This document shows positions 1,356 through 58,223 of a DNA stretch of 64,000 nt, piece after piece. The DNA comes from Acidiphilium sp. C61 (GTDB taxonomy: Bacteria > Pseudomonadota > Alphaproteobacteria > Acetobacterales > Acetobacteraceae), in assembly GCF_902712915.1 (NCBI RefSeq), contig NZ_CACTIA010000005.1:1302001-1366000 (forward strand). Reading direction: 5' to 3'. The notes beneath the pieces were generated by a model. That model had not been told where the DNA came from and ran no database searches. It was given only the letters and a program-made list of their open reading frames with translations. The position numbers were made by a program, and so were the translations under genes. Position 1 is the stretch's first letter. Each line of letters opens with the position of its first letter.

Positions 1356-1457
1356 GAGCATCATCCGATCAGATGGAATCATCTGATCGGATAAAGATGC
1401 TCTGATTATCAACAAGATAGAGCACGACATCCGATCCGGATGGATCGGAACGTGCTC
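1356..1457. repeat. Full two-hairpin repeat (MITE-like), copy 1
   Basis: The element has two adjacent inverted repeats. The first runs GAGCATCATCCGATC to GATGCTC; the second runs GAGCACGACATCCGATC to GTGCTC; a linker TGATTATCAACAAGATA joins them. The whole is flanked by TA on both sides. It lies between two convergent genes, and its right-hand TA plus the adjacent C form the stop codon (TAG, minus strand) of the peptidase gene. Confidence 0.9.
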
Positions 1458-2254
1458 TAGCCGAGTTTCGGCGTGAGCGCCTCGGCCTCCATCGCATTGG
1501 CGAGTTCGATCAGGCTGGACCGGCCGACCAGCCGCAGCAGCGAGAATTTCCGCTTCGGCCCGAGAAACACCGGCTTCGCCCGCTTTCCGCAGCGCGCGGC
1601 GATCAGGCCGCGCACATCGCCGAACCCGTCGATCAGGCCGCGTTCGCTGGCAGCACTGCCCAGCATGTAGGAGCCGTCGAACACCGTGTCGTCGCCCTTC
1701 AGCGCGCCGCCGCGGCGCTCGCGCACCCACGCCTTGAAGGCGGCGTGAATGTCGTCGAGCAGCGCCTGGTTGAATGCCGCGTCCCCCGGCCGCTCGGGCG
1801 AGAACGGGTCATTGCGCAGCTTGTTAGCGCCGGCGGTGACGACGCGGCGCTCGATGCCGAAGCGGCGGATCAGGTCATGCACGCCGAAACCGCCGCCGAC
1901 CACGCCGATCGAGCCGACGATCGACATCGGATTGGCAAAAATCTCGTCGCCCGCACAGGCGATCCAGTAGCCGCCGGAAGCGCCGACATCGCCGATCACC
2001 GCAAGAACGCGCACGCCGGTCTCCTCGGCCTTGCGGCGGATATGCCTGCCAATCAGGTCGGATTGCACCGGCGAGCCGCCGGGGCTTTCGATCGCGAGGA
2101 TCAGCAGCTTCGTCCCGCCTTTCGCGAGGTCGAAGCCACGGTCGATGGCGGGGGCAAAACGTTCGAGATTGACCGCCCCCTCGCGGGGCGAAATCAGCCC
2201 GGCAAGCCGGATCACCGGCACGCACGGGCGTGACCACGGCAGGCGCAGCGTCAT
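1457..2254 (-). CDS. SppA-type S49 family serine peptidase
   Basis: A 265-residue S49 peptidase related to signal peptide peptidase A, which degrades cleaved signal peptides or other small membrane peptides. The Ser/Lys dyad is visible: Ser93 in GDVGASGGYW and Lys145 in TAGANKLRND. An ESPGG segment near residue 58 matches the family oxyanion region. It is the short single-domain form. No convincing N-terminal signal anchor is seen, so the protein may be cytosolic or only peripherally attached. Its ATG overlaps the stop of the upstream DUF1489 gene (ATGA), so it is the last gene of a three-gene unit. The stop codon is provided by the flanking hairpin repeat. Confidence 0.85.
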   Translation of the reverse strand: MTLRLPWSRPCVPVIRLAGLISPREGAVNLERFAPAIDRGFDLAKGGTKLLILAIESPGGSPVQSDLIGRHIRRKAEETGVRVLAVIGDVGASGGYWIACAGDEIFANPMSIVGSIGVVGGGFGVHDLIRRFGIERRVVTAGANKLRNDPFSPERPGDAAFNQALLDDIHAAFKAWVRERRGGALKGDDTVFDGSYMLGSAASERGLIDGFGDVRGLIAARCGKRAKPVFLGPKRKFSLLRLVGRSSLIELANAMEAEALTPKLG

Positions 2255-2676
2255 GGCAGCAGCGCCAGGGCGCGCAGGTCGCGCCGCAGCGCCGGCGGCA
2301 GGTCCTCGATGCCGGAGGTGCGGCCGCCATCCGGCAGGTCGGCGGGCGCATCGTCCGGCGCGAGGTAGCGCCAGCCCTGGAAGGGCTTCATCGGCCGCGC
2401 CTCGACCCGGACGAGCGTGGGGTCGAGCACGAGGCCGGTGCAGCGCGTCCCGTCATCCCAGACATCCTCGATCACGTCGAGAATCCGCTGGCGAACCAGC
2501 ACGGCGCCGGTGATGACCCAGTAGATCGACCCGCCATCGGCAAGCTCCGCCGCGCGCTTGGGAAAGCTGCGGGTCTGGTGGCGCAGCGGCGGATCGGCCA
2601 CCGCGCGGCGGCGCTGGATCTCGGCCAGATGGCCGGGATCCTTCACGCCGACCGCGAGCTTGACCAGATGGATCAA
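2251..2676 (-). CDS. DUF1489 family protein
   Basis: A 141-residue protein of unknown function. A TTG start at 2676 is chosen because it gives the family N-terminus MIHLVKLAVG and overlaps the upstream stop as TTGA; no nearer ATG gives it. Core motifs are GGSIYWVITG, VRQRILDV, GLVLDPTLVRV and FQGWRYL, the pattern of the alphaproteobacterial DUF1489 family as I know it. It sits between the molybdenum hydroxylase subunit and the S49 peptidase with 4-nt overlaps on both sides, which indicates tight co-translation. Its function is not known, and the neighbours do not settle it. Confidence 0.8.
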   Translation of the reverse strand: MIHLVKLAVGVKDPGHLAEIQRRRAVADPPLRHQTRSFPKRAAELADGGSIYWVITGAVLVRQRILDVIEDVWDDGTRCTGLVLDPTLVRVEARPMKPFQGWRYLAPDDAPADLPDGGRTSGIEDLPPALRRDLRALALLP

Positions 2677-5173: not shown

Positions 5174-5836
5174 ATGCAGATCAACGCCGATCTTCGCCAG
5201 CCAGCCCTCGTCGATGCCGCGGCGCTCGACTGGATCGCCTCGCCGATGGCCGGCGTCGAGCGCCGGATGCTGGAGCGCGACGGCGGCGAGGTGGCGCGGG
5301 CGACCTCGCTGGTGCGCTACGCGCCGGGCTCCGCCTTCAGCCCGCACCGGCATGACGAGGGCGAGGAATTCCTCGTGCTGGAGGGCGTGTTCTCCGACGA
5401 GACTGGAGATTTTCCGCGCGGCCACTACGTGCGCAACCCGCCCGGCTCGCGGCACACCCCCTCCAGCGCGCCGGGCGCGACAATCCTGGTGAAGCTGCGG
5501 CAGATGCCGCCGGAAGAGGCCGCCCCGGTGCGGATCGACACCACCGATCCCGGGCTGTGGCGCGAGCGTGCGCCGGGCTGGTCGGAAGCGCTGCTGTTCT
5601 CCGCCCCGTGGGAGCAGGTGGACATGATCCGCCTCGCCGCCGGCATCGAAACGGTGGAGCAGGCCTATCCGCGCGGCGTCGAGATCTTTGTGGTGGAGGG
5701 ATCGATCACGCGGGACGGCGCGGTGCACGGCGCCGGCACCTGGCTGCGGCTGCCCGCCGGCAGCCGGCTCGCGCTGGCCAGCACCGACGGGGCGCTGCTC
5801 TACCGCAAGAGCGGCCATCTGCCGACGGTCGCCTGA
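5174..5836 (+). CDS. Cupin domain protein, ChrR-like
   Basis: A 220-residue protein with two cupin-type halves. The start at 5174 follows AAAGGAGCAGAC. The first half carries the metal-site pattern SPHRHDEGEEFLVLEG and a later SRHTP; the second half (from about residue 125) repeats the fold without an obvious His triad. This resembles the cupin part of ChrR anti-sigma factors and related acetylacetone-cleaving cupins, but no N-terminal zinc anti-sigma domain is present. It ends 4 nt before an FAD amine oxidase gene, so the two are probably one transcript. It may be a small-molecule oxygenase or a sensor; I cannot decide between them. Confidence 0.7.
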   Translation: MQINADLRQPALVDAAALDWIASPMAGVERRMLERDGGEVARATSLVRYAPGSAFSPHRHDEGEEFLVLEGVFSDETGDFPRGHYVRNPPGSRHTPSSAPGATILVKLRQMPPEEAAPVRIDTTDPGLWRERAPGWSEALLFSAPWEQVDMIRLAAGIETVEQAYPRGVEIFVVEGSITRDGAVHGAGTWLRLPAGSRLALASTDGALLYRKSGHLPTVA

Positions 5837-5840
5837 CGCC

Positions 5841-6938
5841 ATGCACGACCTGATCGTGGTCGGGGCGGGCCTCGCCGGCCTCGCCCTCGCGGCGCGGGCG
5901 CAGGAGGCGGGCCAGCATGTCGCAATCATCGAGGCGCGTTCGCGAATCGGCGGGCGAAGCCTCGCGCATCGCACCGAATCAGGCTGCTACGATCTCGGCC
6001 CGGCCTGGATCTGGCCTTCCATGCAGCCGCGCGTGGCGCAGGCCGCCGCCGCCTTCGGCCTCCTTCTGCACCGCCAGGCCGATGCAGGCGGCTTCGTGTT
6101 CCAGGACGGCGACGGAACGGTCCAGCGCCTGCCCCACGGCTTCGCGCAGGAGCCGCCGAGCATGCGGATCGAAGGCGGGACCACCGCCCTCGCCGAAGGC
6201 TTCGCCGCCCGCCTCGCCCCCGGCACGATCCGGCTCGGCACCCGGGTCGAGCATCTGGTGCTGGAATCGGACGCAGTCAGCGTCGAGGCCGGGGAGACAC
6301 GGCTACGGGCGCGGCGCGTGGCGCTGGCGCTGCCGCCCCGGCTGGCGGCTGCCATCGGCTTTGCGCCCACCCTGCCCGCCGCTTCACTGCGGCAGCTCGA
6401 GGCGGTGCCGACCTGGATGGCCGGGCATGCCAAGGCGCTGGCAATCTACGACGCGCCGGTCTGGCGCGATTCCGGCCTGTCCGGCGGGGCCTTCAGCCGC
6501 TGCGGACCGCTGGGCGAGATCCACGATGCCAGCCTGCCAGGTGCCTCCGGCGAGGCGGCGCTGTTCGGCTTCTTCGCCTGGCCGGCCGCGATGCGCGCGG
6601 CGCGCCGGGCAAGGCTGGAGGATGCGGTACGCGCCCAGCTCGCCGCCTTGTTCGGCCCGGCGGCCGGATCGCCCCGCGCGCTGCTGATCCAGGACTGGTC
6701 GGCCGACGAGCTGACCGCAACGCCGGCCGACGCCGCGCCGCTGGCCGGGCATCCGGCCTATGCGCCGCTCGCCCTGCCCGCGCCGTGGCGCGACCGTGTC
6801 CTGCTTTCTGGGTCGGAGAGCGCGCCGCAATTCGGCGGTTATCTCGAAGGGGCGCTGGAAGCCGCCGAGGCAGCCGCCGCCATGAATGCGCAACATGGCG
6901 GCGGCCTTCCCGCGGCGGGCGTGGCAGCCGGGTTCTAG
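5841..6938 (+). CDS. FAD-dependent amine oxidase family protein
   Basis: A 365-residue flavin monoamine oxidase-like protein. The ATG at 5841 opens directly into the Rossmann FAD motif (IVVGAGLAGLALAARA, then IIEARSRIGGR). The C-terminal VLLSGSESAPQFGGYLEGA is the second FAD-contacting segment typical of the family. It probably oxidises an amine or a related CH-XH bond with O2; the substrate is unknown. It is co-directional with the cupin gene 4 nt upstream. The stop codon TAG at 6936-6938 is part of the edge of a solo hairpin repeat. Confidence 0.8.
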   Translation: MHDLIVVGAGLAGLALAARAQEAGQHVAIIEARSRIGGRSLAHRTESGCYDLGPAWIWPSMQPRVAQAAAAFGLLLHRQADAGGFVFQDGDGTVQRLPHGFAQEPPSMRIEGGTTALAEGFAARLAPGTIRLGTRVEHLVLESDAVSVEAGETRLRARRVALALPPRLAAAIGFAPTLPAASLRQLEAVPTWMAGHAKALAIYDAPVWRDSGLSGGAFSRCGPLGEIHDASLPGASGEAALFGFFAWPAAMRAARRARLEDAVRAQLAALFGPAAGSPRALLIQDWSADELTATPADAAPLAGHPAYAPLALPAPWRDRVLLSGSESAPQFGGYLEGALEAAEAAAAMNAQHGGGLPAAGVAAGF

Positions 6939-6975
6939 AGCACGACATCCGATCCTGATGGATCGGAACGTCCTC
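6938..6975. repeat. Solo hairpin repeat between convergent genes
   Basis: A 38-bp inverted repeat (GAGCACGACATCCGATC to GGATCGGAACGTCCTC) flanked by TA. It corresponds to the right half of the full element. It contains the stop codons of both convergent neighbours in its two ends and probably serves as a bidirectional terminator. Confidence 0.85.
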
Positions 6976-8198
6976 TAGGCCCGGCCGCTGCGCATCCGCC
7001 GGAGGCGGAGGATGGTGTCGATGGTGATCGCGGCCAGCAGGATCAGCCCCTCGACGATGAAACGCACGGACGAGGCAGCACCGAGCAGGTTCATCCCGTT
7101 GCTGACACTCGCGATCACCAGCGCGCCGAACAGCGCGCCATAGACGCTGCCGCGCCCGCCGAACAGCGACGTGCCGCCGATCACCGCCGCGGCGACCGCG
7201 TTCAGCATGATGTCGCCATTGCCCACCGAGGCGGAGGCGACACCGAGGCGCGCCGCATCGAGATAGCCGGCAAGGCCGACGAGGAAGCCGGCGATGACGA
7301 AGACGGCGAGCTGGATCCCCTTCACCGAGATGCCGGCGCGCCGCGCCGCCTCGGCATTGCCGCCGACCGCGTAGAGATGCCGGCCGAAGCGGGTCGACTT
7401 CGTCACGAAGGCCGAGGCGAACAGCGCGATCAGGAACAGCATCAGCAGGAATGGCACGCCGCGATAGGCATTCAGCATGAACACCGCGCCGAACAGCATG
7501 ATGGCGACACCGACCAGCCGCATCGTCGCGGCGAACCCGCCCTCATGGCCGCTCGCCGTGCGCTTGCGGATGCCGTTCAGCGTCACCGCCGCATAGGCGC
7601 CGAACAGCAGCAGGCTCAGCACCCACGACCATAGCGGATCGAGATTGAGCGTGCCGATCGCGGTGGTGAAATCGTCCGCCAGCGGCACCGAGCCGCCATG
7701 CGGCGTCAGGATCGCGAGCGTCAGACCCTCGGCGATCATGCCGCCGCCGAGGGTGACGACGAAGCTCGGCACGCCGATCCGCGACACCACCATGCCCTGG
7801 AGAAAGCCGATCCCGGTCGCCAGCGCGATTCCAAGCGCGATGCCGACGCCGACCGGCAGGTGAAAGAACACCGTGGCCAGCGAGAACACCGAGGCGGCGA
7901 GCACCGAGTTCCAGCCGATCGACAGGTCGATCATGCCGAGCAGGATGATGTAGATTTCCGCCAGCGCCAGCGTGCCGGTGACGACGATCTGCGCCGCGAG
8001 ATTGGAGAGGTTGCGCGGGGTCAGGAAGTTGGCGTTCAGCGTCTCGAACACGATCCAGATGACGATCAGCGCCGCGATCACCGGCAGCATGCCGAGATCG
8101 GTCGATTGCGCGACCCCGGTCAGCCAGCGCGTGAACGGTGATTTCTGCTCGGATTCCTGCCCGGATTTCCGCTCTGGGGGCTGCACGGTGCTACTCAT
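6975..8198 (-). CDS. xylH: Xylose-type sugar ABC transporter permease
   Basis: A 407-residue polytopic inner-membrane permease of the ribose/xylose ABC importer class (BPD_transp_2). It has a hydrophilic N-terminus of about 35 residues and then roughly ten hydrophobic segments; family signatures include NLSNLAAQIV, GMIDLSIGW and GGTSLFGGRG near the C-terminus. It is translationally coupled to the ATPase gene (4-nt overlap) and follows the periplasmic binding-protein gene, completing a xylF-xylG-xylH-like operon. XylH is the best match I recognise, but other pentoses are possible. The stop codon lies in the downstream repeat. Confidence 0.85.
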   Translation of the reverse strand: MSSTVQPPERKSGQESEQKSPFTRWLTGVAQSTDLGMLPVIAALIVIWIVFETLNANFLTPRNLSNLAAQIVVTGTLALAEIYIILLGMIDLSIGWNSVLAASVFSLATVFFHLPVGVGIALGIALATGIGFLQGMVVSRIGVPSFVVTLGGGMIAEGLTLAILTPHGGSVPLADDFTTAIGTLNLDPLWSWVLSLLLFGAYAAVTLNGIRKRTASGHEGGFAATMRLVGVAIMLFGAVFMLNAYRGVPFLLMLFLIALFASAFVTKSTRFGRHLYAVGGNAEAARRAGISVKGIQLAVFVIAGFLVGLAGYLDAARLGVASASVGNGDIMLNAVAAAVIGGTSLFGGRGSVYGALFGALVIASVSNGMNLLGAASSVRFIVEGLILLAAITIDTILRLRRMRSGRA

Positions 8199-13389: not shown

Positions 13390-13413
13390 CGCGCGGCCGG
13401 CGGGCGAGAGTCA

Positions 13414-13449
13414 GAGCATCATCCGATCCAATCGGATCGGAAAGTGCTC
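13414..13449. repeat. Solo hairpin repeat, chimeric ends
   Basis: A 36-bp hairpin that begins like the left hairpin (GAGCATCATCCGATC) and ends like the right one (CGGATCGGAAAGTGCTC), as if the middle of a full element had been lost between the shared ATCCGATC motifs. The right end is followed by TA, which with the preceding C gives the TAG stop of the GST gene. The left flank is CA, not TA. It lies between convergent genes. Confidence 0.8.
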
Positions 13450-14117
13450 TAGAAATCCAGATCGGCGTAATGCGGCGGCGGGGTGAAGCCGGAAACCCGG
13501 TCGTTCAGCAGCGGCCGAAACGCCGGGCGGGACTTGATCCGCGCATACCATTCCCGCGCCGCCGGGTTCACCGACCAGTCGACATCGCCGATGAAGTCGA
13601 GAGCCGAGAGCTGTGACGCGGCGGCGAAATCGGCGAGCGAGAGATTGGCGCCGGCCAGATATTTCCGCCGCTCGGCGAGAAAGCCGATATGGCCGAGATG
13701 CGCGCGCAGCGCCGCATACCCCTCGCGGATGCGCGTGGGATCGGGCGCGCCGCGCTTGGCCGCCGGCTTCATCACCTTCTCGTACAGCAGGTTGCGCGAG
13801 ACTTCGGTGGCGAAACGCTCGTCGAACCAGGCGGTGACCGCGCGAATCTCGGCGCGTTCGGCAAGGGTCCGCCCGATCAGCGAAATGTCCGGATAGGCCT
13901 CGTCGAGATATTCGCAGATCGCATTCGAATGCGGCACCACCAGCCCGTTTTCCTCGACCAGGGTGGGCACCGTGCCCGCCGGGTTCATCGCCAGGTATTC
14001 CGGCCGGCGTTCCCAGGTCTTTTCCAGCTTGAGTTCGAAGGGCAGCCGCTTTTCGGCCAGCACGAGCCTGACCTTGCGGGCAAAGGGCGAAAGCGGGAGA
14101 TGATGGAGAATGCGCAT
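13449..14117 (-). CDS. Glutathione S-transferase family protein
   Basis: A 222-residue GST with an N-terminal thioredoxin-like domain (MRILHHLPLSPFARKVRLVL, with S/P-F-A-R-K at the glutathione site), the cis-Pro segment GTVPTLVEE and S-NAICEYLDE in the expected order, and an all-helical C-terminal domain (LSLADFAAASQLSALDF). It probably conjugates or reduces electrophiles with glutathione in the cytosol. The stop codon is supplied by the hairpin repeat. It is transcribed away from the divergent sulfite-dehydrogenase-like gene. Confidence 0.85.
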   Translation of the reverse strand: MRILHHLPLSPFARKVRLVLAEKRLPFELKLEKTWERRPEYLAMNPAGTVPTLVEENGLVVPHSNAICEYLDEAYPDISLIGRTLAERAEIRAVTAWFDERFATEVSRNLLYEKVMKPAAKRGAPDPTRIREGYAALRAHLGHIGFLAERRKYLAGANLSLADFAAASQLSALDFIGDVDWSVNPAAREWYARIKSRPAFRPLLNDRVSGFTPPPHYADLDF

Positions 14118-14258: not shown

Positions 14259-15515
14259 ATGAGCGAGACAGACAGGGATGCGCCAGCGTCCCACGCCATG
14301 ACACAATCGCGCCGGTCGGCGCTCGCCGGCGGGGCCGCCATCGCTGTGCTTGCCGCCCTGCCCCGCGGGGCGCGCGGCGCGACCGTCACCCTGCCCTTCG
14401 GCAACGGCGAACGACCGCTCGTGCCGGCTGGAACCTTTCCGCAAAAGGGCGAGATGATCCTCCAGCGCACGCGGCCGCCCTTGCTGGAAACGCCCTTCGC
14501 CGTGTTTGGCGACAATCTCTACACGCCGAACGACCTCGCCTTCGTGCGCTGGCATCTCGGCGACATGCCGACCTCGGTCGATCCCGCGACCTACCGGCTG
14601 CGGATCGGCGGCGCGGTGCGGCGGCCCTACGAGCTGACACTGGAAGACCTCGTGCGCGGCTTTCCCCATCGCCGTCTCGCGGCGGTGAACCAGTGCGCCG
14701 GCAACAGCCGCGGGCTCATCGAGCCGCGGGTGGCGGGTGCGCAATGGGGGAACGGCGCGATGTTCAACGCGATCTGGACCGGCGTGCCCCTGCGCGCGCT
14801 GCTCGCCCGCGCCGGGGTCAGCCCGAAGGCCACCCATGTCGCGTTCCGCAGCCTCGAATCGGGCGGCATCTTCCCGCCCGATATCCAGTTCGAAAAGGCG
14901 CTGCCGCTCCGCCGGGCGAATGACGGCGTCACCATGGTCGCCTTCCGCATGAACGGCGCCTACCTGCCGCTGCTCAACGGCTATCCGCTGCGCCTGGTCG
15001 TGCCCGGCTGGTTCTCGACCTACTGGATGAAGATGCTCACCGAGATCGAGGTGCTCGAACATCCCTCGACCGATTTCTGGATGGCCAAGGCCTATCGCAT
15101 CCCCGACCGGCCGGATGGCGGGATGCGTCCGGACGAAACCGGGGTGAAGATGGTCCCGATCGGGCCGATGCGCCCGCGCAGTTTCTTCACCGGCATCGCG
15201 AACGGCGCCCGCGTGCCGACGTCCGGCGCGCTCACGCTGCGCGGCTTCGGCTTCGGCGGCAACGCCGCCCTCCGCGCGATCGACATCTCAGAAGACGCCG
15301 GCGCAAGCTGGCGCCCGGCCACGCTCGGGCCGGATCACGGCCCTTACGGCTTCCGCGAATGGCACGCCGTCGCGCGGTTTCCAAAGGCCGGCGACTACCG
15401 GCTGATGGTGCGGGCGCGCAACGTCGCCGGCCAGATGCAGCCGATGCGCGCGGTCTGGAATCCCGGCGGCTATCTCTACAACCAGGTCGAACATGTCGAT
15501 GTCGTGGCCGGCTGA
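14259..15515 (+). CDS. Sulfite dehydrogenase-like molybdoenzyme (SorA/SoxC type), Tat-exported
   Basis: A 418-residue periplasmic sulfite-oxidase-family enzyme. It starts after GAGGCAGACG. The N-terminus carries a twin-arginine signal (QSRRSALAGGAAIAVLAALP). The molybdenum ligand is probably Cys146 in AVNQCAGNSRG, and the segment YLPLLNGYPLRLVVPGW is typical of the family. The C-terminal third is the dimerisation domain. It should oxidise sulfite to sulfate and pass electrons to a c-type cytochrome. A small cytochrome c is encoded 13 nt downstream, the SorA-SorB arrangement, so the pair is read as one enzyme. Confidence 0.83.
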   Translation: MSETDRDAPASHAMTQSRRSALAGGAAIAVLAALPRGARGATVTLPFGNGERPLVPAGTFPQKGEMILQRTRPPLLETPFAVFGDNLYTPNDLAFVRWHLGDMPTSVDPATYRLRIGGAVRRPYELTLEDLVRGFPHRRLAAVNQCAGNSRGLIEPRVAGAQWGNGAMFNAIWTGVPLRALLARAGVSPKATHVAFRSLESGGIFPPDIQFEKALPLRRANDGVTMVAFRMNGAYLPLLNGYPLRLVVPGWFSTYWMKMLTEIEVLEHPSTDFWMAKAYRIPDRPDGGMRPDETGVKMVPIGPMRPRSFFTGIANGARVPTSGALTLRGFGFGGNAALRAIDISEDAGASWRPATLGPDHGPYGFREWHAVARFPKAGDYRLMVRARNVAGQMQPMRAVWNPGGYLYNQVEHVDVVAG

Positions 15516-15528
15516 AGGAGACCTAGTC

Positions 15529-39032: not shown

Positions 39033-39035
39033 CTC

Positions 39036-44490: not shown

Positions 44491-45316
44491 AATCGCCGAT
44501 GCCCCGCATTGGGGCGTGATCGAGGGAGAGATGTTCTTCGATGTCGGGAGCGTCCTGCAGGCGCATTATCCCGACCTCAAATCCGCCATCGCCGCCGGGA
44601 TGGCCGGGGTGGCGGAGGCCCGCGCACAGGCGCGAGCCACGCCGCTGCAGGCGCTGAGCTTCCTGCCGGTGATCCCCAACCCGGACAAAATTCTTTGCGT
44701 CGGTCTGAACTATGAGATGCACCGCCAGGAGACCGGGCGGCCGGAGGTTGCGCACCCCACCATCTTCGCCCGCTTCGCCAACAGCCAGATTGGCCACATG
44801 GCGCCGATCCTGCGGCCCAAACTCTCCAACGATCTCGATTACGAGGGCGAACTGGCCGTCATCATCGGCACGCCCGGCCGTTATATTCCCCGCGCCGCGG
44901 CGATGGCGCATATCGCCGGCTACGCCTGCTACAACGATGCCAGTGTGCGCGATTTCCAGCGCCACACGATGCAGTTCACGCCGGGCAAGAATTTTCCCGA
45001 TACCGGCGCCTTCGGCCCGTGGATGATGACACCCGATGAGCTGGGACCGCTGGCGGAGCTGCGCCTGCAGACGCGCCTCAACGGCGAGGTGGTGCAGGAG
45101 GCACTGTTCAAGCAGATGATCTTCGATATCGGCACCCAGATCGATTATTGCTCGCAATTCACCCGGCTTGAGGCCGGCGATGTAATCGTCAGCGGCACGC
45201 CGGGCGGCGTCGGCGCCAAGCGCAACCCGCCGCTCTGGATGAAGCCGGGCGATGTCGTCGAGGTCGAGATCGACCGGCTGGGCATTCTCCGTAATCCGGT
45301 CGCGCAGGAGGCGTGA
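44471..45316 (+). CDS. Fumarylacetoacetate hydrolase family protein
   Basis: A 281-residue FAH-fold enzyme with a small N-terminal domain and the catalytic core from about residue 70: CVGLNYEMHRQETGR, the metal-site acidic residues in DLDYEGELAVIIG, YACYNDASVRDFQR and VIVSGTPGGVGAKRNPP. Members hydrolyse acyl-pyruvates or act as hydratases/decarboxylases on ring-cleavage products. Its place after the hydroxylase and dioxygenase fits a late step of meta-cleavage catabolism. Confidence 0.83.
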   Translation: MKLATVKIADAPHWGVIEGEMFFDVGSVLQAHYPDLKSAIAAGMAGVAEARAQARATPLQALSFLPVIPNPDKILCVGLNYEMHRQETGRPEVAHPTIFARFANSQIGHMAPILRPKLSNDLDYEGELAVIIGTPGRYIPRAAAMAHIAGYACYNDASVRDFQRHTMQFTPGKNFPDTGAFGPWMMTPDELGPLAELRLQTRLNGEVVQEALFKQMIFDIGTQIDYCSQFTRLEAGDVIVSGTPGGVGAKRNPPLWMKPGDVVEVEIDRLGILRNPVAQEA

Positions 45317-45383
45317 TGCTCTAACAGCCGCGCCGGCAAACCGCCCGCGCGCGGCACGTCCAAAAATAATGGGGAGACTAAAA

Positions 45384-46724
45384 ATGAATGGTCCAGGCGA
45401 GGCCGGGCAAATGCCGGCAATTCCGACGCGCGCCTACATGATCGTGGCGCTGCTGTTCGTGTTTCAGACGCTGAACTTCTTCGACAAGCTGGCCTTCGGC
45501 GTCTCGGGCGTGCCGATGATGCATGAATTCAGCCTCACCCCCAAGCAGTTCGGCTTGATCGGCGCGGCGTTCTTTCTGTTTTTCGCGGTCGGCGGCACGG
45601 TGATCGGCACGCTCTTCGTCGGGCGCTACCGGTCCAAACATATCCTGCTGACCCTCGCTGGCATCTGGACGGCGAGCCAGCTGCCCGTCGCCTTCACCCA
45701 TTCCTTGCCAATCATCATCGCCTGCCGGTTGCTGCTGGGCATCGGCGAGGGCGCGGCACTGGCCACGGCGATGACCGCCGCCTACGAATGGTTTCCCGAC
45801 CATCGCCGCAACCTTCCCTCCGCCTTCATTCTGCAAGGCATCAGCGCCGGCTTTCTCATCGGCGGGCCGCTGCTCAGCTGGTTTGTGGTGCATGCCGGCT
45901 GGCGCTCCTGCTTCCTGGTGTGCGGGGTTCTGAGCCTGGTCTGGATGGTGCTGTTCGCGCTGATCGGGCGCGAGGGACCGCTTGCCGGCCAGCACGCCGC
46001 CCCCGTGGCACATGAAACCCCGTTGCCGTTCCGCCTGCTCTGGCTGGACCGCACGGTCATCGGCGTCATGCTCATCGCCTTTTTCGGCTATTGGGTCATC
46101 GGCATGGCCGCGGTCTGGCTGCCGCCCTTTCTGCGGCTGGGGCTGGGCTATGCGCCGCTGAAGGCCGACTGGATCATCTCCGCCATCTACGTGATCCAGT
46201 CTCCGGCGCTCATCCTCGGCTCCTGGCTGACGCATACGATGCGCCAGCGCGGCTGGAGTGCCCGCATCTGCCTGGGCTGGAGTTCTGGCCTCGCGATGCT
46301 GGTGAGTGGCGCCGCCTTGCTCGCCGCGGTGCGAAGCCCTGCCGGCGTGGTGCAGACCTGCTTCCTGGCCATCGCCTTTTCGGTGCCGAGCCTGACAACG
46401 ATCTTCGGGCCGGTGATCCTCGCCGCGATCGCGCCGTCCCGCCAGCGCGCCCGGCTGGTGGTGGTGATCATCTCCGCCACCTCGATCTCCGCGTTCTTTT
46501 CCACCTTCATCAACGGCTGGATCATCGGCGCCTACCCGGGCAATGCGCCGCTGGGCTTTGCCATCGCCTTCGGGCTGGGCGGGGTGATCCTGCTCGCCGG
46601 CGGGCTGGCCAGCTTCCTGCTGCTGTTTCCTGAAGCAAGCGCCGCGCGCTTCGCCGCCTATCGGCAGGCCCGCGATACCGGCGCCGGGTTTGAGCCTGCC
46701 TCATTCGCCCGCGCCAAGCCCTGA
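45384..46724 (+). CDS. MFS transporter, anion:cation symporter-like
   Basis: A 446-residue inner-membrane protein with about twelve hydrophobic segments: MIVALLFVFQTLNFFDKLAFG is helix 1, GTLFVGRYRSKHILL the loop 2-3 motif, and GIGEGAALATAMTAAYEWFP the helix 4-5 region typical of the ACS family that imports aromatic and organic acids. The start at 45384 follows GGGGAGACTAAAA. It probably imports the cluster's substrate with protons. Confidence 0.83.
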   Translation: MNGPGEAGQMPAIPTRAYMIVALLFVFQTLNFFDKLAFGVSGVPMMHEFSLTPKQFGLIGAAFFLFFAVGGTVIGTLFVGRYRSKHILLTLAGIWTASQLPVAFTHSLPIIIACRLLLGIGEGAALATAMTAAYEWFPDHRRNLPSAFILQGISAGFLIGGPLLSWFVVHAGWRSCFLVCGVLSLVWMVLFALIGREGPLAGQHAAPVAHETPLPFRLLWLDRTVIGVMLIAFFGYWVIGMAAVWLPPFLRLGLGYAPLKADWIISAIYVIQSPALILGSWLTHTMRQRGWSARICLGWSSGLAMLVSGAALLAAVRSPAGVVQTCFLAIAFSVPSLTTIFGPVILAAIAPSRQRARLVVVIISATSISAFFSTFINGWIIGAYPGNAPLGFAIAFGLGGVILLAGGLASFLLLFPEASAARFAAYRQARDTGAGFEPASFARAKP

Positions 46725-46767
46725 TCCGACGAGCATCTCAAATCCAACGTAACAAGGGAGGTTTCCA

Positions 46768-47664
46768 ATGAAGACAGGATTTCGTTTCATGCTGGCCGGC
46801 ATTGGCCTGGCCGCGATGTCGTTGCCCGCCAAGGCGGCGATGGTCGGCAGCAATCCGGAATATCCGGTTGGCAATACGCTCGGCCAGCCGACGGGCCTGC
46901 TGCCGCCGCCTGGCGTGTATCTCACCTTCAAGCCGAGCTACACCCAGTCCCGCCCGGTGAGCGGGGACGGCCATTTCACCGGCGCCCATGCCAATATCTG
47001 GGGCGCCACCGGCTCGATCGCCTACATTCCCGACATCCGGATCCTCGGCGCCCGCTATGGCATGTTCATCCGCTCTCTCGGCTGGCTGAATGTCAGCCTC
47101 ACCACGCCCAGGGCGGCCGGTAGCAAGACCTTCAGCCGCACCGGCCTCGTTGATACCGAGTTCACGCCGCTTTCATTGAGCTGGGATCTCGGCCATCATG
47201 TGTTCCTCGATGCCGATTTCGGCTTCTATCCGCCTAACGGCCAGTACAGCAACACGGCCAAGGTGAATACCGGGCAAAATCATTGGACGATCGAGCCGGA
47301 CATGTCCGTCAGCTGGCTCCCCGGCCCCTACCAATTCACGGTGCACGTGACGCTGGACAAGAATTTCGAGAACAGCACCACGCATTATACCAATGGCACG
47401 ACGATGGATTGGGACTTCACCGCGATGCGCAGTTTCGGTCACTGGTCGATCGGGCCGGTCTCGTATTTCTACAAGCAGATCACGGCGGATTCAGGCCCGG
47501 CGGCGCTCAATGGCGGGTCGCCCGAATCCTTCGCGCTGGGGGCGGATGTCGCCTATCAGGGCAAAGGCTACAAGATGAACATGTTCTTCACCCATGACGT
47601 CTACGCCCGCAATGTCGGCGAGGCCGGCAAGGTCGTGCTGACACTCAGTGTGCCGTTGAGGTAA
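46768..47664 (+). CDS. Outer-membrane channel of the MetA-pathway phenol-degradation transporter family
   Basis: A 298-residue predicted beta-barrel with a signal peptide ([20 protein letters not shown], then AKA-A). The rest alternates short strands rich in aromatic residues ([43 protein letters not shown]) and ends in a strand with terminal residues SVPLR. It matches the family of outer-membrane proteins in phenol and aromatic catabolic clusters. As the last gene of the cluster it likely brings the substrate across the outer membrane. Confidence 0.78.
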
Positions 47665-47671
47665 CCCGCTC

Positions 47672-47750
47672 GCAGCATCATCCGATCAGATGGTAGCATC
47701 TGATCGGATCGAGCTGCTCGGTTTGTCGATGTGATCGATCGTCGTTCGGA
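47672..47750. repeat. Truncated hairpin repeat
   Basis: The left hairpin is present (GCAGCATCATCCGATCAGATG ... GATCGGATCGAGCTGCTC, 47672-47719), followed by linker-like sequence and only a short piece of the right half. It lies directly downstream of the outer-membrane channel and borders the panE fragment. Confidence 0.7.
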
Positions 47751-47855
47751 TGTGCGGCCAGGTCGGACCAGGAAGGTGATGTCTCGCCCGGCCTGAACCT
47801 GCCTTGCACCGAAATAACCGCCCGTCGCGCCATCCCCGACAACACGCACGCGCAT
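47750..47855 (-). pseudogene. 2-dehydropantoate 2-reductase (PanE/ApbA) N-terminal fragment
   Basis: The minus-strand frame from 47855 reads [19 protein letters not shown] and then [14 protein letters not shown], the NADP-binding start of ketopantoate reductases (usual G-A-G-A-I/M-G). About 35 codons remain; then the sequence runs into the truncated hairpin repeat and stops. The rest of the gene is absent, so this is a relic at the right border of the accessory region. Confidence 0.7.
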
Positions 47856-47900
47856 TGCGGTGTCCGGTCATGACAGGGGTCTTCGTGGTGAAGCGGGGCG

Positions 47901-49445
47901 TCAATGTGAACCGGTTGCGGGGGCCGCCGGAGCCGCGACCTTCCGCATCAGCAACACGAGTGGGGCGGCGATGACGAAGGCGAGCATCACGGCCCGAAAG
48001 GCATCGGCATAGGCCATGGTCGACGCCTCGCGGTAGGCAAGGGCCCGCAATTGCGCAAGCGCGGCGACGTGACCCGCGGGAGCGGAGCCGAGCAGCGTTG
48101 CAAGGTGTGTGCTTGTTGCCGCGACGAGGCGGTCCATCGCGTCATTCGCGGGCGTCAGGTTGGTCGCGATCGCGAGGAAATGCATGTTGGTCCGGTCATT
48201 CAGGACGGCGCCGCATACCGCGATGCCAACCGCTCCGCCGAGATTGCGCATCATGTTGAAGAGACCGCTTGCATATTTCAGTCGCGCGGCAGGAAGGCTG
48301 CCGAGCCCGAGGGTAACGCTCGGCGCGACAGCGAAAACCTGCGGGAAGCCGCGCAGGATCTGCGGCACCAGCAGCTGGTCGCCGCCCCAGTCGTGGGTAA
48401 TCAGGCTGAAGCTCCACATGGCGAGACCGAAGCAGCCAAGCCCGAACATCATCAGCCATCTCCCGTCGAATTTCCGGGCGAGCGCGATATAGATGGGAAC
48501 CCCGATCAGCGAGGCCACGCCGGTCGAGAAGATGGCAACGCCGGTCTGCCAGGCGGAAAATCCGCGCACGTAGCCGAGAAACAGCGGCTCGAGGTAGATG
48601 GTCGAGAAGATACCGATGCCGGTGACGAAGGAGAGGATGCAGCCGATCAGGAAATTGCGGTTGCGCAGGGCGCGCAGATCGACAACCGGATGCTCGTAGG
48701 TGAGACTCCTGACGACGAACAGGATGCCGGTTATCGCAGAGACGATGGCGCAGAGACGGATCGTCTCGTCGCTGAACCAGTTCCAGCGCGCACCTTCTTC
48801 GAGCACGTATTCGAGCGTGCCGAGCGCTGCGGCCATCAGAGCGATGCCGGGATAGTCGGCATCGCCGAGGAGCGAGAGGTCGGCCTCATCGATGTCGACG
48901 CGCAGCGCCACGACGAAGGCGACGAGCAACCCGGGCACGAGATTGACGTAGAAAAGCCAGTGCCAGTCCAGCGTGTCGGTGATCCACCCGCCGATGACCG
49001 GGCCGAGGGTTGGCGCGACGGAGGCGATGGTGCCGATCACCGCGGCGGCGTAGACCCGCTTCGGGCCGGGAAAATAGTGGAACGAGGAGGTGAAGACGGT
49101 GGGGATCATCGACGCACCGAGCATTCCCTGCAGGGCGCGGAAGACGATCATGCTGTCGATGTTCCAGGCGAGGCCGCAGAGCATCGAGGCGCATGTGAAC
49201 CCGAGCGCCGATCCGGCGAACAGCCACCGTGTGGAAAAGAGGCGTGTCAGCCATCCCGAAAGCGGAATCATGATGATTTCGGCGATGAGGTAGGCGGTCT
49301 GCAGCCAGCTGATCTGGTCCTGTGCGGCGGACAGGCCGCCACCGATTTCCTGCAGGGACGACGCCACGATCTGGATATCGAGCAGCGCGATGAACATGCC
49401 CACGCACATGATCGCGAACGGAACGATGGCGCTGAGATTGTTCAC
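47901..49445 (-). CDS. DHA2-type MFS drug efflux permease (EmrB/QacA family)
   Basis: A 514-residue, 14-helix inner-membrane antiporter: MFIALLDIQIVASSLQEIGGGL is the conserved first helix, WLQTAYLIAEIIMIPLSGWL the second, and RALQGMLGASMIPTVFTSSF the motif C region. With the upstream membrane-fusion protein it should form an EmrAB-type tripartite exporter. It starts 11 nt after the fusion-protein stop. Substrates are unknown. Confidence 0.88.
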   Translation of the reverse strand: MNNLSAIVPFAIMCVGMFIALLDIQIVASSLQEIGGGLSAAQDQISWLQTAYLIAEIIMIPLSGWLTRLFSTRWLFAGSALGFTCASMLCGLAWNIDSMIVFRALQGMLGASMIPTVFTSSFHYFPGPKRVYAAAVIGTIASVAPTLGPVIGGWITDTLDWHWLFYVNLVPGLLVAFVVALRVDIDEADLSLLGDADYPGIALMAAALGTLEYVLEEGARWNWFSDETIRLCAIVSAITGILFVVRSLTYEHPVVDLRALRNRNFLIGCILSFVTGIGIFSTIYLEPLFLGYVRGFSAWQTGVAIFSTGVASLIGVPIYIALARKFDGRWLMMFGLGCFGLAMWSFSLITHDWGGDQLLVPQILRGFPQVFAVAPSVTLGLGSLPAARLKYASGLFNMMRNLGGAVGIAVCGAVLNDRTNMHFLAIATNLTPANDAMDRLVAATSTHLATLLGSAPAGHVAALAQLRALAYREASTMAYADAFRAVMLAFVIAAPLVLLMRKVAAPAAPATGSH

Positions 49446-49456
49446 CGGCGCGCGCC

Positions 49457-50599
49457 TCAGGAATGCCGGTTGGCGGGCAGGCGTTTCGTGTTCACCGAAA
49501 CCGACGCCGAGAGGCCCGGACGCAGCAGGCCGAGGGTCGATGTGTCGCCGTCGAGAACGATGCGAACGGGCACGCGCTGGACGATCTTGGTGAAGTTGCC
49601 GGTCGCGTTCTGCGGCGGAATGACGCTGAACACGGCACCGGTCGCGGGGGCGAGGCTCGCCACATGGCCATGCAGGACCCGCCCGGGCGACACGTCGGCG
49701 ACGATCGTGGCCGGATCGCCAGGCCGCATCCGATGCAGGTCACTCTCCTTGAAGTTGGCGTCGACCCAGAGCCCGCGTGCCGGGACGACGGAAAGCAGGT
49801 TCGTTCCCGCCGGCACATAGGCGCCTGCCTGCGCCGACCGATCGCCGACATATCCGTCGACCGGTGAATCGATCGTCGTGTATCCGAGGCGCAGCCGGGC
49901 AATCCTGAAATCGGCCTCAGCAGCCCTTATTGCCGCTTTGGCGCCTGTTATCCGCGTCTGGAGTACCGAAAGAAGCTGTTTCGAGACGACGACCGCCGCC
50001 GTTGCCGCATTGACGGAAGCGGCCGCCTTGTGCACTCCGGCGAGGGCTCGCTGGGCATCCTGCCGTGAACCGGCGTCGTTGTTGGCGAGGCTCCGGTAAC
50101 GTGTCGCTTCCTGCGCGGCGAAGGTGGCTTCCGCCTGCCTCGCGGCAAGGTTCGCCTCCGCCTGACGGATCGCGGTGTGCTGGAGTTCGTATCTGGCCTG
50201 CAACGCGGCGACGGCGGCCTTGCGTTCGGCGACGGCGGCGCGTGCGTGGTCGAGTGCGGCCAGATAGTCGGCCGGATCGAGGCGAACCAGGGGCTGGCCG
50301 GCCCGGACATACTGGTTGTCGTGCACCAGGATCGACTGGATGTATCCGGATATGTGCGGGGCGATCGGCGTCACGTCGCCACCGACATAGGCGTCATCCG
50401 TGGTTTCGACGAAGCGCCCGGCCACCCACCAGTTCGCCGCATACCAGGCACTGGCCGCAAGCAGCGCGATGCCAGCCGCCAACAGCAGCATCCTCTTGCC
50501 GAAACGCCGGGGCACATCGGCGGAGCGCCTGCCGGTGATCGGTCGGGGCTGCGGATGATCCGGCACGTCGATGGTCCGATCGTCTGTCGGATAGCTCAT
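49457..50599 (-). CDS. EmrA/HlyD-type membrane fusion protein
   Basis: A 380-residue periplasmic adaptor. The start at 50599 follows GAGGAAAG. One membrane anchor (residues 35-57, MLLLAAGIALLAASAWYAA), then TTDDAYVGGDVTPIAPHISGY opening the lipoyl half-motif, an alpha-helical hairpin (about 110-220) and the beta-barrel region (YTTIDSPVDGYVGDRSAQAG). It links the EmrB-like pump to an outer-membrane channel, which is not encoded here. Confidence 0.88.
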   Translation of the reverse strand: MSYPTDDRTIDVPDHPQPRPITGRRSADVPRRFGKRMLLLAAGIALLAASAWYAANWWVAGRFVETTDDAYVGGDVTPIAPHISGYIQSILVHDNQYVRAGQPLVRLDPADYLAALDHARAAVAERKAAVAALQARYELQHTAIRQAEANLAARQAEATFAAQEATRYRSLANNDAGSRQDAQRALAGVHKAAASVNAATAAVVVSKQLLSVLQTRITGAKAAIRAAEADFRIARLRLGYTTIDSPVDGYVGDRSAQAGAYVPAGTNLLSVVPARGLWVDANFKESDLHRMRPGDPATIVADVSPGRVLHGHVASLAPATGAVFSVIPPQNATGNFTKIVQRVPVRIVLDGDTSTLGLLRPGLSASVSVNTKRLPANRHS

Positions 50600-50645
50600 T
50601 TCGTACTTTCCTCGGGATGGGACGGCCGGCAGCGCGCGGAATGCA

Positions 50646-51110
50646 TCAGGCCGGCGCGGTGGGCATGTCGAAGACGAGCAGCGTTGACGTTGCGGAGGCA
50701 CAGAGCTTTCCAGCCGAATCGGTCAGCCGGGCTTCGGCAAAGGCGGTGCGGCGGCCGATCGACAGGATCTTGCCTTCGGCGCGCACGGTCCCGCTATCCG
50801 GGCTCAGCGGGCGGTGATAGGACACCTTGAGTTCAAGGGTCGTGTAGCCTTGGATTGGACTGAGCATCGAATGGGCCGCGCAGCCGCAGGCGCTGTCGAG
50901 GAGTGTCGCAGCGTAGCCGCCATGGACCGACCCGATCGGGTTCAGCACTTCCGGGCCGGGCTCTCCCTCGAAAACGGCCCGGCCTTTCTCGATTTCGATC
51001 AGCCTGAAATCCATCGTCCTGCCGATGGGTGGATTGTTGCCGGCTTTGAGGAGGGCCTGAAGCTGGGCCAGCCCATCATGGCCATCGGGATTGTTGCGTA
51101 TGACGTCCAT
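50646..51110 (-). CDS. PaaI family hotdog thioesterase
   Basis: A 154-residue hotdog-fold thioesterase: LNPIGSVHGGYAATLLDSACG is the active-site helix with the conserved His-Gly-Gly, and YTTLELKVSYHRPL the central strand. It hydrolyses acyl- or aryl-CoA thioesters in the cytosol. It is 46 nt upstream of the emrA-like gene on the same strand and is probably the first gene of that operon under the divergent TetR regulator. Confidence 0.85.
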   Translation of the reverse strand: MDVIRNNPDGHDGLAQLQALLKAGNNPPIGRTMDFRLIEIEKGRAVFEGEPGPEVLNPIGSVHGGYAATLLDSACGCAAHSMLSPIQGYTTLELKVSYHRPLSPDSGTVRAEGKILSIGRRTAFAEARLTDSAGKLCASATSTLLVFDMPTAPA

Positions 51111-51145
51111 TGCGGTTTCCTTTCCTGCGCGATTCGAGAAAACTG

Positions 51146-51211
51146 GAGCACGTTCCGATCCATCCGGATCGGATGTCGGGCTCTATCTTGTTAATAATTT
51201 GAGCATCATCG
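51146..51211. repeat. Truncated hairpin repeat, reverse orientation
   Basis: The right hairpin in inverse orientation (GAGCACGTTCCGATCC ... GGATCGGATGTCGGGCTC), the linker TATCTTGTTAATAATTT, and the first bases of the left hairpin (GAGCATCATC), where it ends. Its TA supplies the stop of the small frame at 51183-51347. Confidence 0.8.
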
Positions 51212-51347
51212 CCCGGCGCGCGTCAGCGCGACGCCCTGCCTCGGCCCGCGCCAGGTCATCATCATCTTCAGTCAGATCCGCGGACAGCATTTCGATCGTC
51301 ATGCCGTTCGAGGCGCCGGCAATCGGGATGGCCGGTCCGAGACCCAT
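51183..51347 (-). CDS. Possible small protein (54 aa)
   Basis: An open frame of 54 codons starting MGLGPAIPIAGASNGMTIEM, preceded by GAAGGAACGGGTTCG. The centre is acidic (LTEDDDDLARAEAGRRADARR). The last residues (MLKLLTR) come from the hairpin repeat that also provides the stop, so the original gene was probably longer or different. Codon use is GC-rich like the neighbours. It may be a real small gene or the front of a truncated one; I do not recognise it. Confidence 0.35.
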   Translation of the reverse strand: MGLGPAIPIAGASNGMTIEMLSADLTEDDDDLARAEAGRRADARRAMMLKLLTR

Positions 51348-51370
51348 CGAACCCGTTCCTTCGGATTATT

Positions 51371-51386
51371 CATGATAATCATCATG
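51371..51386. promoter_or_regulatory. Candidate TetR operator
   Basis: Perfect inverted repeat CATGAT-AATC-ATCATG, 38 nt before the TetR start, in an AT-rich window. A partly similar GCATCATGTAT follows at about 51403. Its position fits autoregulation and control of the divergent efflux operon. Confidence 0.5.
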
Positions 51387-51423
51387 TATTGATTTATGAC
51401 GAGCATCATGTATCTTGTCAAAT

Positions 51424-51981
51424 ATGCGGGTGAGCAAGGAACAGGTCGCGGAAAACAGAAAGACGATTCTGGAGGCTGCTGGCAGGCTGTTTCGCGAGCG
51501 CGGCTTCGAGGCGGTAACCGTCACGGACGTGATGAAGGCCGCGGGCCTCACGCATGGCGGCTTCTACGGCTATTTCAGCAGCAAGGACGAACTAATCGGG
51601 GAAGCCTTGGCTGTCGCCCTTTGCAGCACGCGGGCGCTACCCGACGATTTGCCGACCTTCGTGAAGCGGTATCTCTCGCCCGCTCATCGGGCCGAGTTTG
51701 CGCGCGGCTGCCCGGTTGTGGCTCTGGCTTCCGAGACGATCCGCCAGCCCGGCGCCGCCCGGGGTGAAATGACGGCGGGGCTGAAGCGCCAGATCGGCGC
51801 GATCAGCCATCTCGTCGCCGGCGCGACCGAGGAGGACCGCCGCCGCGCTGCGATCGGAACCTGGGCGGCGATGGTGGGCGCCATGACCCTGGCGCGGCTG
51901 ACCGACGACCGGACACTGTCGGACGAGATTCTCCACGAGGTTCGCGAATGGCTGACGAGGCGGCCAAGCTGCGGCGAGTAG
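51424..51981 (+). CDS. TetR/AcrR family transcriptional regulator
   Basis: A 185-residue repressor with an N-terminal helix-turn-helix (residues 8-55: RKTILEAAGRLFRERGFEAV, VTDVMKAAGLTHGGFYGYFSSKDEL) and a helical ligand domain of the TetR_C type found near efflux genes (ARGCPVVALASETIRQPGAAR). The ATG at 51424 is used; a TTG nine bases upstream is also open. It probably represses the divergent thioesterase-emrAB operon. Confidence 0.87.
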   Translation: MRVSKEQVAENRKTILEAAGRLFRERGFEAVTVTDVMKAAGLTHGGFYGYFSSKDELIGEALAVALCSTRALPDDLPTFVKRYLSPAHRAEFARGCPVVALASETIRQPGAARGEMTAGLKRQIGAISHLVAGATEEDRRRAAIGTWAAMVGAMTLARLTDDRTLSDEILHEVREWLTRRPSCGE

Positions 51982-52286
51982 GTGGTGATGTTGCGGGCTG
52001 TCTCGCCGGCGGGCCGGCGGGGCCCGCGATTTCCTCTCTGCCCCGGGATGTGAACCGAGGTCATGGTTTGGCAACAGAGCCCGGGTCCGAATGCCAGAGT
52101 GGCTATCGTTAGAGCACGTTCCGATCCTGATGGATCGGAGAGTGCTCTGGCGGCGATTTTCCGTGTGAGCAGGCGGATATGAGCGAGGACGAGCCATGCG
52201 GCGGCACGGGCGTGAACATGCCCAATCGAGATGTGTTCGATCCGATTAGCCGGCGCTCTGGGGTGGATTTAAAATTGGGGAGAGGA
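51982..52286. other. Gene-free stretch between TetR gene and tRNA-Phe
   Basis: About 305 bp. It contains the solo hairpin repeat at 52112-52147, and otherwise I see no supported gene or signal. Confidence 0.5.
52112..52147. repeat. Solo hairpin repeat
   Basis: GAGCACGTTCCGATCCTGATGGATCGGAGAGTGCTC, read as a near-perfect 36-bp inverted repeat with TA on the left side. It lies between the TetR gene and the convergent tRNA-Phe. Confidence 0.8.
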
Positions 52287-52362
52287 TGGTGCCCAGGGGC
52301 GGAATCGAACCACCGACACTGCGATTTTCAGTCGCATGCTCTACCAACTGAGCTACCTGGGC
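52287..52362 (-). tRNA. tRNA-Phe (anticodon GAA)
   Basis: A 76-nt cloverleaf with encoded CCA: acceptor GCCCAGG / CCTGGGC, D arm GCTC...GAGC, anticodon stem TGCGA / TCGCA with loop CTGAAAA (anticodon GAA), T arm GGTTCGATTCC. Confidence 0.95.
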
Positions 52363-58064: not shown

Positions 58065-58152
58065 CACACCCCTTCCGGAGGGGTTCAAACCAGAGACCGC
58101 CATGCACGGATCGAGGGTCGGCCCGATGAGGCGGGCCCGCCATGGCCGACCC
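58065..58152 (+). terminator. Structured region downstream of secF
   Basis: CCCCTTCCGGAGGGG near 58068 forms a short stem. Further on, a perfect 9-bp stem GGGTCGGCC (58115-58123) / GGCCGACCC (58144-58152) encloses the palindrome GCGGGCCCGC. There is no T tract. It may end or protect the secDF mRNA. Confidence 0.45.
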
Positions 58153-58185
58153 GGATCATGACCGCAAGCGCTTGATCGACACCTG

Positions 58186-58223
58186 GAGCATCATCCGATC
58201 CTTTCGGATCGGATGTAGTGCTC
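58186..58223. repeat. Solo hairpin repeat between convergent genes
   Basis: GAGCATCATCCGATCC ... GGATCGGATGTAGTGCTC, 38 bp, with TA on the right side that forms part of the stop (TAG) of the SGNH hydrolase gene. The left end is of the first-hairpin type and the right end of the second. Confidence 0.8.

Follow-up and report, generated by a model that had tools for sequence, protein, structure and literature searches.

A dispersed two-hairpin repeat of Acidiphilium: a probable MITE with IS630-like ends

Introduction

The 64-kb stretch of Acidiphilium DNA analysed here (the window) carries a short palindromic repeat, found both as two hairpins joined by a linker and as single hairpins, which raises the question of what kind of element it is and by which enzyme it could be moved. 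A preliminary description counted about 16 copies, proposed a MITE, perhaps mobilised by an IS630/Tc1-type transposase, and regarded the two-unit design, with each half also occurring alone, as unusual.

Anatomy of the repeat in the window

All 16 positions of the preliminary description were read out, with full, truncated and solo copies lying as it had placed them (Table 1). The five full copies belong to a single family with a length of 106 nt; four of them are 86–93% identical to the fifth, that at 1354. Their layout is TA-GAGCATCATCCGATCAGATGGAATCATCTGATCGGATAAAGATGCTC-linker-TAGAGCACGACATCCGATCCGGATGGATCGGAACGTGCTC-TA, and the element ends, TA-GAGC...GCTC-TA, are set in a YTAR context. 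The length of the repeat is 106–110 nt, and the consensus of 69 copies folds into two hairpins (11 of the 80 full-length hits, of low score or cut off, were excluded from the fold). The 106 nt comprise no genes and leave no room for a transposase gene. An Rfam scan of the window placed no family over the repeats, its matches being two tRNAs and the SRP RNA only.

The word GAGCANNNTCCGATC, with at most one mismatch, occurs 23 times in the window against 0.89 expected, a number reached in 0 of 100 shuffles, and 22 of these words lie within 15 of the 16 places, that at 26518 having none. The remaining word, at 17314–17328, stands alone outside all listed copies and is probably due to chance. The gapped two-hairpin pattern TAGAGCA-N30-45-TGCTC-N8-25-TAGAGCA is found 4 times in the window and 0 times in 100 shuffles. 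A profile built from the five full copies gave, among the matches listed, 12 places covering 13 of the 16 positions; 15879, 26244 and 35377 were not among the matches listed for the window. By reading, position 26244 comprises a reversed right hairpin with linker and shares a palindromic left hairpin with the copy at 26297, the hairpin at 26569 is a hybrid with both ends of the outer type, and the palindrome at 35377 is probably the remnant of a copy.

Table 1. Copies of the repeat in the window and the eight sites with occupied and empty alleles (G001 and G008 are the compared relatives)
Feature	Position	Strand	Remark	Presence/absence
Full two-hairpin copy	1354–1459	+	GANTC (GAATC) in left loop, 1376–1380	Empty in G001
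Solo right hairpin	6936–6977	+	At TTAG common to two convergent stop codons	Empty in G001
Solo hybrid hairpin, both ends outer-type	13413–13451	+	Left flank CA	Empty in G001
Empty site in window	15511–15515	.	G001 has full copy (C56:30081–30186) at stop codon	Empty in window
Degenerate hybrid hairpin, far end decayed	15877–15913	-	At TAG stop of ORF 15493–15879 (+)	Empty in G001
Three-hairpin array	26242–26402	+	Reversed right hairpin and linker (26242–26296), then full copy (26297–26402)	
Decayed reverse copy	26516–26614	-	26518 and 26569 matched together as one copy	
Full copy	27830–27935	+	G001: solo hairpin nearby, opposite orientation	
Degenerate palindrome	35377–35399	.	By reading	
Full copy, both arms of left hairpin long	39592–39700	+	Inside a host repeat	Host repeat empty elsewhere
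Full copy	42743–42848	+	Two-sided C-G swap in left stem	
Truncated copy: left hairpin and linker	47672–47738	+		
Truncated copy: right hairpin, linker, start of left hairpin	51144–51213	-		
Solo right hairpin	52110–52149	+		
Solo right hairpin	58184–58229	-	G001: full two-hairpin copy at same site	
Site in G001	C11:2189			Empty in G008
Site in G001	C30:76686			Empty in G008

Internal deletion of full copies accounts for the separate occurrence of each half more simply than a pair of independent units would. The solo right hairpin at 58184 is most simply a deletion product because G001 has a full copy at the same site; for the other solo halves we infer the same origin. The hybrid at 13413 would be the product of a deletion between CCGATC-type repeats. 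More generally, TAGAGCA repeats and CCGATC/GATCGGA repeats within the element could recombine with loss or duplication of the intervening DNA and so give rise to solo and multi-hairpin forms.

Presence and absence in related genomes

The closest comparison is offered by G001, the unclassified MAG SKS3.bin60, whose contig C56 is collinear with the window and over the greater part of it ca. 92% identical, its segments showing 86–97% nucleotide identity (mostly 90–94%) except at 39034–52285. The protein of the DUF4337 gene of the window has a match of 92% in G001 and of 73–76% in Acidiphilium species. The second comparison genome, G008, belongs to the same genus. Occupied and empty alleles with readable junctions were found at eight sites in the window and its relatives; the G001 site L038, with an imperfect gap of 8, is not included in this number. 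The copies are not confined to conserved sites, yet at two sites G001 and G008 both carry a copy, so that not every copy is young. Matches with E <= 1e-3 number at least 74 in G001, at least 58 in G008, 16, 11 and 1 in further genomes and 0 in 8 of the 13 genomes of the genus, counts which include reverse self-matches of the hairpins and which come from the scoring of 40 of 114 candidates in G001 and 40 of 48 in G008. The differences between close relatives at the readable junctions, and the range from at least 74 matches to none per genome, support the proposal of a MITE. In G009 and G011 a diverged version is present, with the same left hairpin and a different right one.

In the copy at 1354 the right-hand TA and the following G form the TAG stop codon of ORF 1457–2254 (-), coding for an S49-peptidase-like protein; G001 has no copy there, the stop reads TGA, and the left flank differs by short repeats. 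In place of the copy, the short unit CGTCGTAAGACGCC is present there as three direct repeats (L066 of G001, 16051–16145). The copy at 6936 supplies the stops of both ORF 5688–6938 (+) and ORF 6975–8198 (-), and the empty site in G001 reads GGGCGTTAGGCCC. The right end of the 13413 copy is the TAG stop of ORF 13449–14117 (-), with TGA at the stop in the empty G001 allele. The 15877 site is empty in G001 (AAATAGCCC), only one end of the window copy being readable. The host repeat of the 39592 copy is in G008 a remnant of an IS5-type (PF13340) transposase and is found uninterrupted at G008 C6:2165532 and in G001 C2 and C19, all with GC where the window has TA.

The window region 39034–52286, 13 kb lying between tRNA genes at 38956–39029 and 52290–52362, carries aromatic-degradation genes and two full copies; it is replaced by ca. 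1.2 kb in G001 and is probably a genomic island. Two further stretches of the window, 32596–32777 and 33962–34143, are 82% alike and probably represent a duplicated gene segment. A search of phage records gave no match, and among plasmid records one of Acidiphilium matched. Plasmid NZ_CP041717.1 of A. multivorum has a full copy at 234160–234265 (L109), with an IS200/IS605 tnpA gene at a distance of 65 bp. In two further Acidiphilium plasmids the match to this stretch begins only at the right end of the repeat, the repeat itself being absent there.

Target site and stop codons

The TA flanks, previously noted on at least one side of most copies, were found on the left of 61, on the right of 54 and on both sides of 44 of the 79 full-length profile hits in the window and its relatives, other flanks being mostly CA or TG. 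A pyrimidine precedes TA in 68/79 and a purine follows it in 68/79, giving a YTAR-like context. Of the eight empty alleles three read TA, two TG, two CA and one GC (the latter in all three paralogues), which leaves TA in the target unproven; on these data a 2-bp TA duplication is also indistinguishable from a TA carried by the element. By reading, four of the five non-TA empty alleles are stop codons, TGA when empty and TAG when filled, for which one transition from TAA would suffice. The GC of the 39592 host repeat requires two changes and is unexplained.

Insertion would take place at YTAR-like sites and leave TA on both sides. TA followed by the G of the element makes TAG, so that a TAA or TAG stop codon hit by an insertion would be restored as a stop, on either strand, and the protein would stay unchanged. 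Placement at stop codons is frequent and appears to be a new observation. Among the 72 full copies with enough flank, 28 have one or both ends in frame with a preceding coding-like stretch of 80 stop-free codons. Out of 152 ends, 32 are in register, against 5 and 6 after shifts of 1 and 2 bases; shifts of 3, 6 and 9, which preserve the frame, necessarily give similar numbers (33–35). For comparison, YTAR sites elsewhere, taken from three long stretches, gave 12/96 (10/85 with stricter exclusion), and with coding-internal sites excluded 26 of 64 copies stand behind a coding stretch vs 8 of 67 YTAR sites, figures obtained with a crude coding test (open frame and GC3) and with control sites from only three stretches. 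Such a habit would allow a parasite to become numerous in compact, GC-rich genomes while leaving genes intact, and would put hairpins at the 3' ends of mRNAs.

The in-frame position of those 28 copies, together with the conservation of the hairpins and of a GANTC site, would also suit an element that is not mainly a parasite but is selected at gene 3' ends or for chromosome structure (as RNA hairpins behind stop codons or as a landmark for CcrM), its spread being incidental. We consider this quite unlikely: gain in particular lineages, uneven copy number and the occurrence of decayed or truncated copies fit a parasite, and the position at stop codons is expected from a TA-type target combined with selection against insertions in genes.

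Outer ends and IS630 elements

IS630-family elements with TA-GAGC ends, which the preliminary description suggested searching for, are present in the same genus and family. In G008 such an element, 1,056 bp long, flanked by TA and with GAGC ends, occurs at one place, with pieces at two more; elements of the wider family have ca. 1,055 bp. Its transposase is identified by PF13358 and by NF033545 (NCBIfam name IS630; E 1.3e-38, above the cut-off of the model), and, with it as query, 104 of 200 genomes of the bacterial family were found to contain relatives. The alignment of ends comprised 18 elements, that of G008 and 17 loci with both ends recognisable, kept by hand (of 30 IS loci 26 were examined and 9 dropped). 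All 17 have YTA on both sides, TA being a search condition and Y not.

The left consensus of the IS, GAGCgt.tTCcgacCTgAcTGAaTCG, is to be compared with that of the repeat, GAGCAa.aTCCGatC.gAtGGAATC (29 loci; L186 excluded). With the first five bases omitted, repeat left ends score a mean of +7.4 bits against the IS left ends, while shuffles score -21.2 (sd 1.4). The left and right ends of the IS differ from each other, and the repeat retains the difference: in Acidiphilium its left end scores 14.4 bits against IS-left and 4.5 against IS-right, and its right end 13.4 against IS-right and 9.8 against IS-left, the latter difference being modest. The similarity extends over ca. 28 nt of the outer ends with this left/right polarity. 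The closest single IS end, the right end of L174, has 16 of its first 17 bases as in the repeat (GAGCATAATCCGATCAG vs GAGCATCATCCGATCAG) and lies in G180, a genome itself without a two-hairpin match. This agreement in register, far above shuffles, supports the IS630 assignment by sequence rather than by transposition assay, and the repeat would represent the ends of an IS630-type element stripped down to a MITE. The link between IS630 and a CIR-like design appears to be new.

The MAG G001 gave 0 PF13358 matches and 0 matches to the IS630 transposase, multi-copy IS being easily lost from MAGs. Over 200 genomes (handles up to G208, counted by hand) the presence of IS630 and of the repeat is only weakly linked (29/47 vs 75/153, Fisher p 0.14).

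REPINs also consist of two hairpins with a linker and have solo forms; they depend on RAYT, an HuH transposase, and carry GTAG/CGTC tags. A mobilisation of this kind, with single-stranded hairpins moved by a Y1 (HuH) RAYT/IS200-type transposase, would make the left TA part of the target and the right TA part of the element, and TA on both sides is, taken alone, as compatible with it as with a 2-bp duplication. The layout and the two-sided changes that keep the stems paired (below) would be accommodated, as would the plasmid copy adjoining tnpA, at whose right end the matches of two other plasmids begin. It is nevertheless quite improbable, given the polar match of the outer ends to IS630, the lack of a GTAG consensus at the ends, where C or T precedes TA in 68/79, and the fact that the plasmid neighbour is one case, at a place where two other plasmids have no repeat. 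That the repeat is moved by a YTAR-targeting transposase of the IS5 family, as in the case of Brucella IS711, is very improbable, as a TAGAGC...GCTCTA pair 500–2500 bp apart exists at 0 of 23 PF13340 loci vs 2 of 10 PF13358 loci (one a whole IS630 element, the other probably chance), the ends resemble those of IS630 and the available parts of the IS711 reports present palindromes as target and not as substrate, even though the YTAR motif and the putative TA duplication are alike and G008 has 15 IS5-type PF13340 matches, with one copy inside such a remnant.

Conservation of the hairpins and distribution

In the aligned hairpins 92.6% of cells are paired, against 27–37% in slid controls, and two-sided changes affect 118 cells vs 34 in shuffles, the arm sequence varying by lineage with complementarity kept. 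One of the five covariation measures, the number of pairs with a two-sided change, is 14 vs 12.1, a value attained in 60 of 500 shuffles. The Acidiphilium copies alone show 26 two-sided changes vs 9 expected, 11 of the 26 at one pair. Repair templated by the palindrome might also account for the likeness of the arms in the absence of selection.

In 46 of 52 rows the left hairpin has an inner arm in which 2–5 additional bases separate GAGC from the core, and 6 rows lack these bases (of 62 rows, 3 that had under 14 pairs and a further 7 of chance coding origin were excluded; two of the remaining 52 are the same element). The copy at 39592, with long spacing at the outer left end too, is an exception. 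The extra bases suggest that the spacing suited to the transposase would be present at the outer ends only and that the pair would move as one unit.

The two-hairpin pattern was found in 69 of 299 genomes of the family and the reversed control pattern in 2 of 299, the places for some genomes being the first ones listed only. In Rhizobiales it matched 52 of 397 genomes, most of these matches being one coding sequence and ca. 12 being true palindromes by eye; the control pattern matched 18 genomes there, so that this survey is much weaker than that of the family. Some Rhizobiales copies (e.g., in G337 and G369) have the two-hairpin layout and a similar linker, such as AAAATCAAAGAGC. The linker is often CCAAAACAAAGAGC-like, with ca. 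15 nt and a range of 10–25 over lineages. The left part of one Rhizobiales copy matches 310 Rhizobium plasmid records, none over more than 80% of the query.

Several composite arrangements were encountered. Tandem units of a left hairpin plus linker with a common TAGAGCA, i.e., forms with three or more hairpins, lie at G062 C105:9060–9189 and C115:64773–64905 and at G001 C23:217456–217592. Two copies head to tail with one common TA (TG in C25) are present at G001 C25:93076–93285, C7:1–207 and C64:1–186, two of these arrays being located where a contig ends. Apparently the ends of the repeat serve as targets for further copies, which may cause breaks in the assembly. In G008 (L071 931–1045, L072 1077–1192, L073 811–925) a second TA-flanked element of ca. 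115 bp, with palindromic parts and the ends GTGTCCTGCCCCTG / GTGTCCCGAATCTG, lies between two full copies 221–222 bp apart. Elsewhere it abuts single copies, and both repeat families seem to target each other's TA ends.

The GANTC site

GANTC lies at position 21 from TA in 16 of 18 IS left ends and in 0 of 18 right ends, where it is found at position 6 in 2 of 18. Repeat loci have it at position 21 in 21 of 30 cases and anywhere in the left loop in 22 of 30; for full-length hits in Acidiphilium and relatives the numbers are 51/80 and 58/80. The background is 1.1 sites per kb in internal IS sequence and 1.6 in the window. The loop variants GGAATC, GGAGTC, GGACTC and GATTC contain the CcrM site with a variable N; the Rhizobiales copies fetched often lack GANTC on reading. 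This register, common to IS630 left ends and repeats, appears to be a new observation.

CcrM is encoded by the hosts, as judged by the RAMA domain (PF18755), detected in 9 of 9 genomes and, among 14 controls, only in Caulobacter vibrioides; the G008 protein matches CcrMI 6pbd with E 4e-136. PF18284, tried as a CcrM marker, was found in 0 of 8 genomes and PF18755 was used in its place. GANTC may be kept either for methylation or merely as a putative transposase-binding sequence. Dam sites gate IS10 and IS50, and by analogy CcrM methylation of GANTC could gate transposase binding or expression and so tie movement to the cell cycle and replication-fork passage, a possibility that is less likely than not. 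If true, it would explain the loop GANTC of CIR as the methylation switch of a transposon end and extend a cell-cycle link to IS630 elements and the CIR/RIME-like repeats of alphaproteobacteria.

Proposed origin and mobilisation

We consider the repeat, with a probability of about 0.82, to be a gene-less MITE of the published CIR design, mobilised in trans by an IS630/Tc1-mariner-type transposase. This reading builds on the observed anatomy, presence and absence, end similarity, covariation and GANTC register. The outer arm would correspond to an IS630-like terminal repeat, with TA-GAGC, the spacing and a TCCGATC-type box; the left one would in addition have an inner box, TGAATC in the IS and GGAATC in the repeat. 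Each IS end, left and right, would have been turned into the respective hairpin and the two joined by the linker. The transposase, the role of the inner bases and the methylation control are putative parts of this scheme.

Comparison with known repeats

CIR were reportedly described by Chen and Shapiro in 2003, and Bru-RS and RIME are said to have been described by Halling and Bricker in 1994 and Osteras in 1995. REPIN/RAYT systems have a similar plan, with two hairpins, a linker and solo forms, but their GTAG/CGTC tags are not seen in the repeat. RUP of Streptococcus pneumoniae, a MITE of IS630-Spn1, is alike in its 107 bp, TA target, IS630-like ends and insertions into other IS, and differs in that the available part of PMC2229807 reports for it neither two arms joined by a linker nor a functional motif. 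Bru-RS1 and Bru-RS2 of Brucella and RIME of rhizobia are likewise intergenic repeats, compared by partial description and probably akin; Bru-RS are listed at 103–105 bp and called palindromic (PMC2267715, in part), and IS711 is reported to prefer Bru-RS palindromes (PMC2266754, in part).

The closest counterpart is CIR, the Caulobacter CcrM-associated intergenic repeats, abundant in Caulobacter and related alphaproteobacteria, whose mobility mechanism is left open in the part of PMC2229807 available. According to parts of PMC2229807 and PMC10969869, CIR are intergenic repeats of alphaproteobacteria of ca. 110 bp, with two inverted-repeat arms and a linker, TA at the termini and GANTC at the terminal loop of one arm. 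The two-unit design is thus not unusual, as first thought, being that published for CIR (PMC2229807, in part) and common in the family. No CIR-IS630 link was found in passages of the papers that combine at least three of the terms CIR, CcrM, IS630 and intergenic repeat, most subscription papers being outside this scope, so that priority is uncertain for what appears new here: the link to IS630 ends, the GANTC register, the extra bases marking the inner arms and the stop-codon insertion leaving TAG. The repeat, likened to CIR by published description seen in part, differs from it in its IS630 ends, presence/absence alleles and stop-codon insertion. A concrete candidate transposase family, together with defined outer ends, a proposed rule for their spacing and the methylation site, makes the mobility of CIR-class repeats testable.
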